Shown piece by piece: positions 10,216-18,683 of a stretch of DNA of 64,000 bases. Every line of letters begins with the position of its first letter. The stretch's first letter is position 1. Made by a program: the position numbers and the translations under genes. Location: positions 1 through 64,000 of the forward strand of contig NZ_JABVAX010000001.1 in assembly GCF_013404595.1 (NCBI RefSeq), given 5' to 3'. A model generated the notes under the pieces. It was given only the letters and a program-made list of their open reading frames with translations, was not told the DNA's origin and made no database searches. This DNA comes from Jannaschia marina. GTDB lineage: Bacteria; Pseudomonadota; Alphaproteobacteria; Rhodobacterales; Rhodobacteraceae.

Positions 10216-10527
10216 ATGCGCGCGCGTATCTACAAACCGGCCAAGACGGCCATGTCCTCGGGGACGGCCAAGACCCGCGACTGGGTGCTCGATTTCGTGC
10301 CCGAGACGCCGCGCCAGATCGACCCGCTGACGGGCTGGACGGGCTCCCGCGATACGCAGGCGCAGGTTCAGCTTCAGTTCGAGAGCCGGAAGGAAGCGGA
10401 GGACTATGCGCGCGACAAGGGGATCGAGTACGTCGTGCTTCGCCCACAGGCTCGCAAGGCCAACCTGCGCGCGGGCGGCTACGGCGAGAACTTCGCGACC
10501 AACCGGCGCGGTGCCTGGACGCACTAG
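10216..10527 (+). CDS. NADH dehydrogenase (complex I) accessory subunit, NDUFS4/18 kDa type
   Basis: A 103-residue homologue of the mitochondrial NDUFS4 (AQDQ) subunit, found in alphaproteobacterial complex I. Recognisable parts are ARIYKPAKTAMSSGTAKTRD, then WVLDFVPETPRQIDPLTGW and DTQAQVQLQFESRKEAEDYA. The chosen ATG has GGAGG six bases ahead; a frame extension upstream to 10186 is less likely. It is expected to bind the peripheral arm of complex I at the membrane. It is encoded away from the nuo operon, as is usual. Its stop overlaps the end of the convergent Pnap_2097-like gene. Confidence 0.9.
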   Translation: MRARIYKPAKTAMSSGTAKTRDWVLDFVPETPRQIDPLTGWTGSRDTQAQVQLQFESRKEAEDYARDKGIEYVVLRPQARKANLRAGGYGENFATNRRGAWTH

Positions 10528-11306
10528 GCGGCCCGGAGGCGGTCTTCGACGGATATGGCGATGATCCGGCCGTCCGTGCGGGCGATCAGCACCTCTGCCC
10601 CGGACCGTCGAACATGCACTGCTTCGCCCGGGTCCACATTGCCCATGTAGATCATCTCGCGTCGACGGATCGGTCGCCGCGTCGCCGCCGTACTCTCCGC
10701 GATCCGGCTGAAGCTCGGAAAATACAGCAGGCCGACGGCGTTGAAATCGAGCGTGTAACTCGGCTCGATCCGTTTTGCCCGGTCCAATGGCATGCGTCGG
10801 GTCCGGAACCTCCGGGAGATGTCGCGCGCCCGCCGTTCGAGGGCGATCAATTCCGGTCCGGCTTCGGGCAGGCGGCAGGGACGGGCGGGCCGGGCGCGGA
10901 CGATCCGTCGGTTCGAGCCTGTCTCGTCGTGCGTCACGAAGGTCGAGAGCATAAGGAGCGTGCCGATCTTCCGCCCGTGACGGCGCAGGATGTGCTGCGA
11001 TCCGATCTGCGATAGACCTGCCGCGGCGATCCCGGAGTGGATGCGGAGGTCTTCGCCCAGAAGCGGGCCGGTGCGGGCCTGCTCGAGCCGCGTCGCGCGG
11101 AAGGCGGCATAGAGCGGACGGCCATCGGCGGCGCGGAAATTGAGGCTGTCCTGCCCGAGCGCGTCGGCGACGAGGTGCCAGTGAATGTCGCCGCACGTGC
11201 CCAGGAGCCAGTGCTCGGATACCCCGTTCGGCGCGAGTTGCTGCATCCCCAGCACCTGCCGCGTGACGGAGCTGCGCGACAGGGCCGGGATCTCGGCGTC
11301 AAGCAT
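10524..11306 (-). CDS. LnmK/Pnap_2097-family biosynthetic protein
   Basis: This 260-residue protein begins with MQQLAPNGVSEHWLLGTCGD and continues IHWHLVADALG, a pattern of the double-hotdog LnmK acyltransferase/decarboxylase relatives (Pnap_2097 family). LnmK itself makes propionyl-ACP from methylmalonyl-CoA in leinamycin biosynthesis; members of this offshoot occur with Nit1C-type clusters, with unknown substrate. Here it is the last gene of the Nit1C operon, its ATG overlapping the stop of the flavin oxidoreductase gene by 8 bp. The second half (TLDFNAVGLLYFPSFSRIAE) looks like the second hotdog repeat. Confidence 0.75.
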   Translation of the reverse strand: MLDAEIPALSRSSVTRQVLGMQQLAPNGVSEHWLLGTCGDIHWHLVADALGQDSLNFRAADGRPLYAAFRATRLEQARTGPLLGEDLRIHSGIAAAGLSQIGSQHILRRHGRKIGTLLMLSTFVTHDETGSNRRIVRARPARPCRLPEAGPELIALERRARDISRRFRTRRMPLDRAKRIEPSYTLDFNAVGLLYFPSFSRIAESTAATRRPIRRREMIYMGNVDPGEAVHVRRSGAEVLIARTDGRIIAISVEDRLRAA

Positions 11307-17037: not shown

Positions 17038-17315
17038 CCTTGCCTCCTTGATGTTGATGGAGACGGGATTGGCTTGTTCGTATTGATTGGATCAATAAGC
17101 AGTCCAATATGCATACAATAAAGACTTCAAGGTTTCTTGCTCGCGGGTACATCTGCCTGTTTCATGGGCACCCATGTTTAATATATCGGATCTTTCGGAA
17201 TGCAGTCTGAAGCAACGATCCAGGACTGGACCGTTGTAGTTTGAAAAAGCATACAATAACCCATTCAATTTCACGAATCGCTCCCCCGGATGACGTGAAC
17301 GGAAAGGGAAAAGAG
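17038..17315. promoter_or_regulatory. divergent promoter region of the Nit1C operon and its MocR regulator
   Basis: This AT-rich 278-bp region carries a direct repeat GCATACAATAA at 17111-17121 and 17249-17259, and a perfect palindrome ATTGAT-TGG-ATCAAT at 17082-17096 about 45 bp in front of nitB. Direct repeats of this kind are usual for MocR-type regulators, so the repeats are the best candidates for the binding site. On the minus strand TTGAAG near 17130 and the TATTGG further down could form a promoter for nitB. Confidence 0.6.
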
Positions 17316-18683
17316 ATGATCGATTGGGTTCCCGCTATGCTCGAACGCGGCAAGCCGCGCTACCAGGCGATCGCGGATGCCATCGCCGCCGACATCCGCG
17401 GCGGCCGTTTGAGCGATGGTATGCGGCTGCCGCCGCAGCGGCGACTGGCCGCGACCCTGGGAATCGACTTCACGACCGTCTCCCGCGCCTATGCCGAAGC
17501 GCAGTCGCGCGGCCATATCGAAAGCCACGTCGGGCGAGGCACCTTCGTCAAGAAGCATGTCGTGACCGATCGCCCCGACCCGTTGCGGGCCGGTGAGGTC
17601 GATCTGGCCATGAATATGCCGCCCGAGCCGGAGGATCCGGACCTCTGTCGCCGGATGCAGGAGGGGCTCGGCTACGTCTCGGCGAACCTGATCGATTTGC
17701 TTCGCTACCAGTCCGCCGTCGGTTCCGAACGCGACCGCGTCGCCGCGTCGAGCTGGCTCAGCATGCGCGGCATGGTTCCGGCGCTCGAGCGGGTGGCGGT
17801 GACGCCGGGGGCCCATGCAACCATGACGGCGATCCTGTCGCTCATCGCTCGCCCGGGCGAACGGATCCTGTGCGAGGCGGTGACCTATCCGGGATTTCGC
17901 AACGTCGCCGGACGGCTGGGGCTCAAGCTCGTCGGGGTGGAGATGGATGCGGACGGCGTCGTGCCCGAGGCGCTGGACACGGCCATCCGCGCGCACGCCC
18001 CCAAGGCGCTCTATCTGAATCCGACACTGCATAACCCGACGACGCTGACGATCCCCGAAGGACGCCGGCTGGCGCTGGCCCAGGTGCTTCAGCGTCACGA
18101 CCTCACGCTGATCGAGGATGACGCCTACGGTTTCATCCCGGCCAAGTCGCCTGCCCCCATCGCGCTCTCGGCACCCGAGCTGACCTGGCACATCGGCGGG
18201 CTTGCCAAGTGCATCGGGGCCGGACTTCGCCTGGCGTTCACGATCGCGCCGACGCCGCGTTGCGCCTATCACCTCGCACAGTCGATCCGGGCTCTCGCGG
18301 TCATGCCGTCGCCGCTGTCGATGGCGCTCGTCACCCAATGGATCGAGGACGGTACGGCGGATGGCATACGTCGGTTTATCCGGGCCGAAAGCGCGGCGCG
18401 TCAGGCGATCGCGACGGAGGTGCTGGGCCACCTGCGTTACTGCTCGGCGGAGAACGCCTTCAACATCTGGCTTGACCTTCCGGAAGGTCTGGGCCGTGCC
18501 GATGTCGTCGCGCGCATGGCCCATCGTCGCATCGGATTGATGCCGTCGGATGCCTTTACCGTGCTGGGCGCGCCCGCAGAGCAGCTGCGCGTCGGCCTCG
18601 GCGGTCCTGTCACGCGGGAGGCCCTGCGCGACAACCTGCGCTTCCTGGCCAACGCGCTTTCGCCCAACAACTACATGGGGTGA
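17316..18683 (+). CDS. MocR-family (GntR/aminotransferase fusion) transcriptional regulator
   Basis: A 455-residue PLP-dependent regulator. The N-terminal GntR winged helix is seen in YQAIADAIAADIRGGRLSDG, LPPQRRLAATLGIDFTTVSR and GHIESHVGRGTFV. The rest is a class I aminotransferase fold with the PLP-binding lysine in HIGGLAKCIGAGLRLAF and the Asp/Tyr region IEDDAYGFIP. The ATG used has GGGAAAAGAG just ahead; an in-frame upstream start at 17241 is possible. It is divergent from the Nit1C operon and is probably its activator or repressor, sensing a PLP-reactive amine. Described Nit1C clusters often have a sigma-54-type activator instead. Confidence 0.9.
   Translation: MIDWVPAMLERGKPRYQAIADAIAADIRGGRLSDGMRLPPQRRLAATLGIDFTTVSRAYAEAQSRGHIESHVGRGTFVKKHVVTDRPDPLRAGEVDLAMNMPPEPEDPDLCRRMQEGLGYVSANLIDLLRYQSAVGSERDRVAASSWLSMRGMVPALERVAVTPGAHATMTAILSLIARPGERILCEAVTYPGFRNVAGRLGLKLVGVEMDADGVVPEALDTAIRAHAPKALYLNPTLHNPTTLTIPEGRRLALAQVLQRHDLTLIEDDAYGFIPAKSPAPIALSAPELTWHIGGLAKCIGAGLRLAFTIAPTPRCAYHLAQSIRALAVMPSPLSMALVTQWIEDGTADGIRRFIRAESAARQAIATEVLGHLRYCSAENAFNIWLDLPEGLGRADVVARMAHRRIGLMPSDAFTVLGAPAEQLRVGLGGPVTREALRDNLRFLANALSPNNYMG

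Follow-up and report, generated by a model that had tools for sequence, protein, structure and literature searches.

Introduction

Nit1C is a conserved seven-gene cluster of distant phyla that has been known since 2005, and the passages of PMC1199592 that describe it give no known product. The parts of the literature that deal with the cluster treat it mainly as a nitrogen system for cyanide and nitriles. Here we describe a Nit1C locus in a 64,000-nucleotide stretch of Jannaschia marina (positions 1 to 64,000 of contig NZ_JABVAX010000001.1, assembly GCF_013404595.1, a draft genome of 3.83 Mb), hereafter called the window. The operon lies beside a divergent gene for a MocR-type regulator and ends in a gene (pnap) for a protein of the Pnap_2097/LnmK type. 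We propose, with a probability slightly short of even (about 0.48), that this last gene makes a propionyl thioester that the N-acyltransferase NitE attaches to a pathway amine. The observations behind this proposal are the gene order, the gene overlaps, conserved residues, a best fold match of the model to LnmK, co-occurrence, and conserved intergenic sites.

In the Nit1C operon of NitraS-ATII (Cupriavidus-like, beta-proteobacterial), reported in 2016, the flavin adenine dinucleotide (FAD) oxidoreductase is followed by two entries, “conserved hypothetical protein” and “putative methylmalonyl-CoA mutase”, and the passages on this operon list the mutase without interpreting it or the preceding gene (PMC4751646). 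This was the only paper found to combine Nit1C with methylmalonyl in the literature searched. No paper linking Nit1C, Pnap_2097, and propionyl supply was found in a search that left subscription titles mostly outside, and none was found under the name Pnap_2097.

In the proposed pathway, the Pnap_2097 protein would decarboxylate methylmalonyl-coenzyme A (CoA), as LnmK does, and would pass the propionyl group on, either bound to CoA or by transfer to the housekeeping acyl carrier protein (ACP). NitE, a FeeM-like GNAT protein, would then N-acylate an amino-acid-like intermediate from the NitC, NitD, NitF, and NitH steps. A dedicated methylmalonyl-CoA mutase may feed the Pnap_2097 protein in Burkholderiales, and a propionate-CoA-ligase-like enzyme may replace the whole propionyl route in Pantoea and Acetobacteraceae. 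The MocR protein would repress the operon via predicted ATTGTATG sites, and this repression would be relieved by an amino-acid-like metabolite forming an aldimine with the pyridoxal 5'-phosphate (PLP) of the regulator, by analogy with EnuR.

The Last Gene Encodes a Pnap_2097/LnmK-Type Protein

The window protein exceeds the cut-offs of both the Pnap_2097 family model (TIGR04099; 213.8 bits, cut-off 125) and the LnmK model (TIGR04098; 198.9 bits, cut-off 100). Its predicted structure, built from a 33-sequence alignment with a predicted local distance difference test (pLDDT) score of 92.6 and a predicted template-modelling score (pTM) of 0.90, most closely matches, among PDB folds, the seven LnmK entries (E 5e-15 to 1.5e-17; template-modelling (TM) score 0.74 for 4hzn, at E 1.5e-17), with acyl-ACP thioesterases listed next. 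In a sequence search against the LnmK chains, Tyr66 aligns to LnmK residue 62, and Tyr62 is presumably the key catalytic residue of LnmK, an enzyme reportedly specific for (2R)-methylmalonyl-CoA. Tyr66, Asn132, Asn189, and Asn223 are conserved in all 71 Nit1C copies of Pnap_2097, and they are also present in five Nit1C-free copies and in one Streptomyces LnmK-type protein. LnmK employs a loop Asn according to the pertinent part of PMC8666670, and one of the conserved Asn residues may match it in Pnap_2097.

The window genome contains two acid-CoA mutases elsewhere (880 and 441 bits), and methylmalonyl-CoA would therefore be available to the protein. Six ACP-domain (PF00550) matches were found in the genome, all on another contig, and at least one is a free-standing ACP. 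Four ACP-domain matches lie within 10 kb at G000:C28:19572-29178, two of them in one 3160-residue open frame, which suggests a cluster of the polyketide synthase/nonribosomal peptide synthetase type.

The Pnap_2097 protein might instead be an editing thioesterase or proofreading hydrolase, clearing wrong acyl thioesters or freeing the finished acyl product from its carrier, with no role in propionyl supply. The rank of the acyl-ACP thioesterases directly after LnmK fits such a role, as does the accessory nature of a gene that many sister clusters lack, but the invariance of the LnmK-type Tyr and Asn residues argues against it, and the methylmalonyl-CoA mutase adjoining the gene in some clusters would have no place in it. 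We regard this alternative as unlikely.

The Slot after nitH

Of the Burkholderiales clusters, 8/8 with Pnap_2097 have a methylmalonyl-CoA mutase gene after it, and 0/5 without Pnap_2097 have one (Fisher 8e-4, kinship uncorrected). Two of these five, L139 and L140, were grouped with Burkholderiales on a part of the NitD tree whose support does not reach the starred level. In the four annotated Burkholderiales clusters, the mutase gene and the end of Pnap_2097 share 4 bp, and the two mutases that were scanned score 990 and 955 bits with the equivalog model NF006944 (cut-off 876).

One Pantoea and one Acetobacter cluster, both without Pnap_2097, have a ligase gene in the same slot, which starts 20 bp before the nitH stop in Pantoea and 14 bp after it in Acetobacter. 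The best NCBIfam model for the two ligases is propionate--CoA ligase, with 502 and 527 bits, respectively. A plasmid search for the slot ligase returned 17 Acetobacter and 8 Komagataeibacter records, numbers equal to those of NitD; the adjacency of ligase and nit genes was checked in one Acetobacter record and, by listed coordinates, in NC_021976. Because the Pnap_2097, mutase, and propionate-CoA-ligase-like genes share one position, this position may be a slot that supplies propionyl groups for NitE.

Among the annotated loci without Pnap_2097, no shared substitute gene other than this ligase pair was found after nitH. The genes scanned there encode a TetR protein, a histidine kinase, a thiamine pyrophosphate enzyme, a catalase, Dus, an amidohydrolase, and a short-chain dehydrogenase/reductase. 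In Aquabacterium olei (L175:15648-17815), nitH is followed by an annotated acyl-CoA/acyl-ACP dehydrogenase gene (no NCBIfam match) and CcoG, not by Pnap_2097.

Distribution of MocR and Pnap_2097 beside Nit1C

A NitD genome search found 118 relatives, the best 80 of which were kept; together with 22 even-sample loci, one family-search locus, and 16 plasmid loci picked partly for carrying Pnap_2097, they form a set of 119 loci in which close relatives and, in part, Pnap_2097 carriers are overrepresented. L125 and L063 are one genome, and 12 loci without downstream room and two without upstream room were left uncounted on that side. A divergent mocR is found in 113/117 loci with upstream room, and Pnap_2097 in 65/107 loci with downstream room, directly after nitH in 62 of the 65. 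If the plasmid loci and the duplicate are dropped, MocR is present in 98/101 and Pnap_2097 in 52/91, and the 80 best NitD matches alone give 77/79 and 48/70.

Even sampling of the class (385 genomes, 10 with NitD) and of the phylum Pseudomonadota (398 genomes, 16 with NitD) gave 23 distinct Nit1C genomes, the window genome included. MocR is present in 22 of the 23 (the window and 21/22 loci), the exception, L137, having a sigma-54 regulator, and Pnap_2097 (E 1e-15 or better) is present in five. When the window genome is left out, the phylum sample contains three genomes with both genes, 12 with NitD only, two with Pnap_2097 only, and 380 with neither (Fisher 4e-4); the corresponding numbers for the class sample are 1, 8, 1, and 374 (Fisher 0.046). 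Within the family sample, 2/149 genomes have a nitrilase above the Nit6803 cut-off, the window genome being one of them. On plasmids, 63 records carry Pnap_2097, and NitD lies a few kb away in 54 of the 60 listed; the other six are four Streptomyces records, Thalassospira marina, and Roseobacter litoralis. In the NitD tree (108 rows), the presence of Pnap_2097 switches 21 times, at least 13 of these on well supported branches, and a six-frame hidden Markov model search of the 42 negative loci revealed no overlooked Pnap_2097. Pnap_2097 is a frequent, exchangeable companion of Nit1C outside the core, widespread beside the cluster in alpha- and betaproteobacteria.

These counts modify the preliminary description of the window, in which the MocR protein was taken to stand in place of the sigma-54 type of regulator and the Pnap_2097/LnmK gene to be an addition. 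MocR does adjoin the operon and the LnmK-like gene is indeed its overlapping last gene, but the regulator is no special replacement, given its near-universal presence in the evenly sampled clusters, and the last gene is not peculiar to this locus. The gene-content comparison excludes a lack of co-occurrence of either gene with Nit1C in relatives, and the earlier suggestion of an acyl-carrier or decarboxylation step has gained support from the genomic context.

Even-sample genomes with Pnap_2097 and without Nit1C are G230, G633, and G769, and the surroundings of the gene in these, in Thalassospira, and in Roseobacter litoralis are mixed. An ACP and an acyl-AMP ligase were found beside Nit1C-free Pnap_2097 in Thalassospira only, ten neighbours having been scanned for G230, G633, and G769. 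The Thalassospira marina gene (L113:3342-15953) belongs to another cluster with its own ACP, a fatty acyl-AMP ligase, a P450, and a desaturase.

NitD itself was found in 513 plasmid records, and the 373 Klebsiella and 30 Escherichia records among them indicate that Nit1C travels on enterobacterial plasmids. In an Acetobacter record (L187:5755-7158), mocR is co-oriented with the nit genes, in contrast to the divergent arrangement in the 119-locus set. A DUF983 gene is found near Nit1C in 17/119 loci (L026, L027, L029, L032, L038, L039, L043, L045, L055-L057, L067, L069, L090, L104, L117, and L131), tail to tail with mocR in ten; kinship was uncorrected.

NitE Residue 135 and the Weighing of the Propionyl Reading

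NitE of the window lies above the cut-off of the Pfam model for FeeM, an N-acyl amino acid synthase (PF21926; 39.5 bits, cut-off 27). A covariation scan covered all Nit proteins and MocR (5552 column-residue states) in 13 sister pairs that differ in the presence of Pnap_2097. NitE 135 was the best-covarying column, and, taken as a scan, none of the other columns stands out from chance either. Arg or Lys occupies NitE 135 in 63/65 clusters with Pnap_2097 and in 9/42 without it (a post hoc count, with seven His taken as non-basic). The residue sits in the sequence LF[R/K]RLHW, directly after the GNAT position where Tyr usually stands (alignment to 1q2y). NitE may thus be read as tuned to the acyl donor made by the slot gene, and a basic residue at 135 might, as a guess, favour an interaction with an acyl carrier protein.

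The scan that singled out NitE 135 is not significant, as 1094 of the 4096 sign flips produce a maximum as high. The column is supported by a hold-out set of 88 loci, in which Arg/Lys was found in 56/56 clusters with and 6/32 without Pnap_2097, and independent pairs were on average 6.5 concordant and 0 opposite (median p 0.016, range to 0.063), but the Arg/Lys grouping had been chosen after all 107 loci were viewed, so that the hold-out was not blind, and six of its clusters without Pnap_2097 carry the basic residue as well. Nine further loci also support it, with Arg/Lys in 4/4 with Pnap_2097 (L181, whose NitD is identical to that of L085, was kept among the four; L182 and L183 were excluded as duplicates of L101 and L043), Glu in 3/3 without Pnap_2097 or ligase, and Arg in 2/2 with ligase, the last two having first been expected to be non-basic and counted as support only post hoc. 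Other points weigh against the propionyl reading. Pnap_2097 is absent from 18 of the 23 evenly sampled clusters and is thus dispensable for the core pathway. The mutase link, seen only in Burkholderiales, could be explained by one gain and the joint loss of two genes, since both lie at the operon end, where a single deletion could remove them. The slot ligase scores under the propionate--CoA ligase cut-off of 955, with acetate ligases nearly equal at 422-449 bits. The Pnap_2097 protein narrowly misses PF18238 (LnmK_N_HDF; 26.4 against 26.5 bits), and the PF00550 search found no ACP in the operon or anywhere on the contig of the window, while the Streptomyces LnmK relative has an ACP beside it and the window gene does not.

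Pnap_2097 and its slot partners might also be passengers of a mobile operon end without common chemistry, in which case the NitE covariation would be a lineage effect. The many clusters on plasmids and the mixed genes after nitH in scanned clusters without Pnap_2097 are what would be expected of passengers, but the shared position of Pnap_2097 directly after nitH in 62/65 clusters, its invariant active-site pattern, and a NitE residue that stays consistent through the repeated gains or losses on the tree make this explanation very improbable.

A wider form of the propionyl reading is that Nit1C makes an N-acylated metabolite and that the exchangeable last gene determines which acyl group this metabolite carries. 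The LnmK-type gene, with or without the mutase, or the ligase would give propionyl, and the presence of neither would give another group, probably acetyl; NitE 135 would be the matching switch, and the EnuR-like MocR would sense the free amino-acid intermediate. We put this forward as a tentative and rather doubtful extension.

The MocR Regulator and Its Predicted Operator Sites

The window regulator belongs to the MocR class, with a GntR DNA-binding domain and an aminotransferase domain containing PLP Lys298. Its start is probably ATG 17316, not TTG 17241, because GGAAAGGGAAAAGAG lies upstream of the former and the annotated 270 bp mocR-nitB gap of an Alloyangia relative fits it. With the EhuR model NF052286 (cut-off 480), three scanned MocR proteins of nit clusters (nit-MocRs) score 383-397 bits and the EhuR proteins of four relatives 583-642 bits, which places these nit-MocRs near EhuR and not within it. 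All ten nit-MocRs compared retain the PLP lysine and the residues corresponding to EnuR Asn244, Phe417, and Arg429, and the Ser104 position is Asn in all ten and the Ser431 position Cys in nine and Gly in the window, this mapping being approximate, as the offset was taken via a relative, not the R. pomeroyi protein, and the Thr245 position is Pro even in EhuR relatives. Because the lysine and the three mapped positions are retained, the inducer of nit-MocR is likely to be amino-acid-like. This MocR group is not absolutely exclusive to Nit1C; a 403-bit relative occurs in G038, where the nitrilase search gave only a weak match.

The octamer ATTGTATG is found in 90/112 mocR-nitB regions. Composition would predict 0.6 copies, and 159 are present, most of them at one of two distances upstream of nitB, 78-97 bp or about 200-245 bp; the octamer is missing from the other 22 regions, which largely belong to more distant clusters. 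The predicted operator on the nitB side of the window, TATTGTATGCATATTG, holds this octamer, and so does the site on the mocR side, which has two mismatches to the longer pattern TATTGTATGNNTATTG. Positions 17105-17120 are the single exact TATTGTATGNNTATTG site of the window genome and 17243-17258 its one two-mismatch site, no site with up to two mismatches being found in the whole genome outside the mocR-nitB region. The EnuR operator consensus ATTGT-N6-ACAAT was also considered as the nit-MocR site and occurs in 0/112 regions, although the ATTGT half-site is common to both. Scans for promoters, terminators, and Rfam families, which are weak scans, gave nothing above chance. In P. pseudoalcaligenes, another MocR beside the cio cluster is called a negative regulator in the relevant passage of PMC8567248, on the basis of proteomics cited as unpublished.

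Gene Layout and the Core Nit Proteins

The nitBCDEFGH genes and the Pnap_2097 gene occupy the minus strand from 17037 down to 10524, and mocR runs divergently on the plus strand from 17316 (Table 1). The nitB-nitH families are all present and contiguous, each above its curated NCBIfam cut-off, which bears out the Nit1C identity and the gene positions of the preliminary description. Its word “complete” holds for the seven nit genes; an MSMEG_0565-family glycosyltransferase of many sister clusters is missing here, and it was found in 20 Nit1C loci (L115-L117, L119, L121, L122, L127-L134, L139, L140, L146, and L149-L151). The 4-8 bp overlaps said to occur at nearly all junctions are real at 5/7, namely nitC-nitD (8 bp), nitD-nitE (4), nitE-nitF (4), nitF-nitG (8), and nitH-pnap (8), and gaps of 85 and 11 bp separate nitB-nitC and nitG-nitH. 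An NDUFS4-like gene (NADH dehydrogenase Fe-S protein 4; 10186-10527) is convergent with pnap, and the stops of the two genes overlap.

Table 1. Features of the Nit1C locus in the window
Feature	Position	Strand	Evidence and remarks
mocR: GntR/aminotransferase-fold (MocR) regulator, near EhuR/EnuR	17316..18683	+	NF052286 396.6 bits (cut-off 480); PF00392, PF00155; PLP lysine Lys298
mocR-nitB divergent regulatory region	17038..17315		
Predicted MocR operator, mocR side	17243..17258	-	holds ATTGTATG; two mismatches to TATTGTATGNNTATTG
Predicted MocR operator, nitB side	17105..17120	-	TATTGTATGCATATTG; holds ATTGTATG
nitB: MSMEG_0572/Sll0783 family protein	16555..17037	-	TIGR04044 283 bits
nitC: Nit6803-type nitrilase, triad Glu46-Lys128-Cys162	15501..16469	-	TIGR04048 555 bits
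nitD: radical S-adenosylmethionine (SAM) enzyme, Cx9CxxC and C-terminal Cx2Cx2C	14384..15508	-	TIGR04043 592 bits
nitE: GNAT N-acyltransferase, FeeM-like, Arg135	13836..14387	-	TIGR04045 213 bits; PF21926 FeeM
nitF: AIR-synthase-like protein	12871..13839	-	TIGR04049 414 bits
nitG: MSMEG_0570 family protein	12591..12878	-	TIGR04042 116 bits; ATG 12878, longer open reading frame from 12914
nitH: flavin-dependent oxidoreductase	11299..12579	-	TIGR04046 579 bits
pnap: Pnap_2097/LnmK-type double-hotdog protein, Tyr66, Asn132, Asn189, Asn223	10524..11306	-	TIGR04099, TIGR04098

NitC closely matches the PDB nitrilase chain 3wuy (492 bits), and its Glu46, Lys128, and Cys162, the nitrilase catalytic triad, are conserved in 120/120 copies (in these 120-copy comparisons, one genome is entered twice). 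Both cysteine sites announced for NitD are present, Cx9CxxC as C123, C133, and C136 and CGKCGAC as C349, C352, and C355, and all six cysteines are found in 120/120 NitD proteins compared. The NitD model (pLDDT 78) resembles the folds of BioB, HydE, and LipA, and the second cysteine site is not placeable in it, as the cluster-binding loop lies partly below 50 pLDDT. The earlier assignment of NitB as DsrE-like was not confirmed, since NitB matched no Pfam family and had no credible PDB relative by sequence (best E 0.39). A NitB-type protein has been tentatively placed in the YchN-like superfamily in the corresponding part of Podar 2005 (PMC1199592).

The operon might instead serve cyanide or nitrile nitrogen assimilation only. 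NitC would hydrolyse cyanohydrins with the assistance of the other genes, and Pnap_2097 would dispose of carboxylic acid or acyl by-products. The nit1C genes have been genetically tied to pseudomonad growth on cyanide in the relevant parts of PMC11049912 and PMC8567248, and cydA (bd oxidase) lies near 4/119 Nit1C loci (L026, L039, L079, and L117; L026 and L117 also have an annotated cydB), a proximity that fits the cyanide link with kinship uncorrected. The cyanase gene cynS lies near one locus, on a Loktanella salsilacus plasmid (L118:8883-21843), where the Nit1C cluster has a sigma-54 regulator in addition to MocR, and genes for a nitrate-type ABC transporter and cynS come after it. However, the radical SAM, GNAT, AIR-synthase-like, and glycosyltransferase genes seem superfluous for simple hydrolysis and look biosynthetic, and the propionyl-type genes in one slot are left unexplained; an exclusively assimilatory role is accordingly improbable.

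Significance and Comparison with Known Systems

The cluster is largely of a known kind, and the contrast in its regulator is not special; what is new is the LnmK residue pattern, the mutase pairing in Burkholderiales, the ligase in the slot, and the NitE 135 pattern. If the last slot supplies propionyl groups for NitE, Nit1C would have a biosynthetic function at least in part, one could predict genome by genome which acyl group its product carries, and labelled propionate or methylmalonyl-CoA would be a handle for finding that product. The neighbouring MocR and an extended site without another close match in the genome would make an inducer screen a second handle. An acyl-supply slot would turn the question of the Nit1C product into a testable prediction.

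The Nit1C clusters (nitABCDEFGH) of P. pseudoalcaligenes CECT5344 and P. fluorescens NCIMB 11764 have the same seven structural genes in the same order as the window. Their regulator is the sigma-54 type NitA, in contrast to the MocR of the window, which also has Pnap_2097 at the end; among the sister loci scanned, a sigma-54 regulator was found in L118, alongside MocR, and in L137. The hypothetical protein of the NitraS-ATII operon, so far as the published gene list goes, fits Pnap_2097 by position alone, and the window, unlike that operon, has no mutase after Pnap_2097.

LnmK, the bifunctional acyltransferase/decarboxylase of leinamycin, has in common with the window Pnap_2097 the predicted double-hotdog fold and the Tyr62/Asn pattern. 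The Streptomyces LnmK relative adjoins a phosphopantetheine-binding protein and a 3-hydroxy-3-methylglutaryl (HMG)-CoA-synthase-like gene, whereas the window operon has no ACP gene. In the malonyl-ACP decarboxylase MadA/YiiD, a hotdog decarboxylase domain is joined to a GNAT domain, which has been mapped on 5JQ4 in the pertinent part of PMC8666670. NitE weakly matches this structure (E 0.006). MadA/YiiD is one fused protein with a single hotdog and acetyl-ACP as its product, unlike the separate NitE and double-hotdog Pnap_2097 proteins. For the regulator, EnuR/EhuR of ectoine catabolism is the closest curated MocR model; the score of the window MocR does not reach the EhuR cut-off, the pocket positions mapped to Ser104 and Ser431 differ, and the EnuR operator arrangement is not seen in nit regions.

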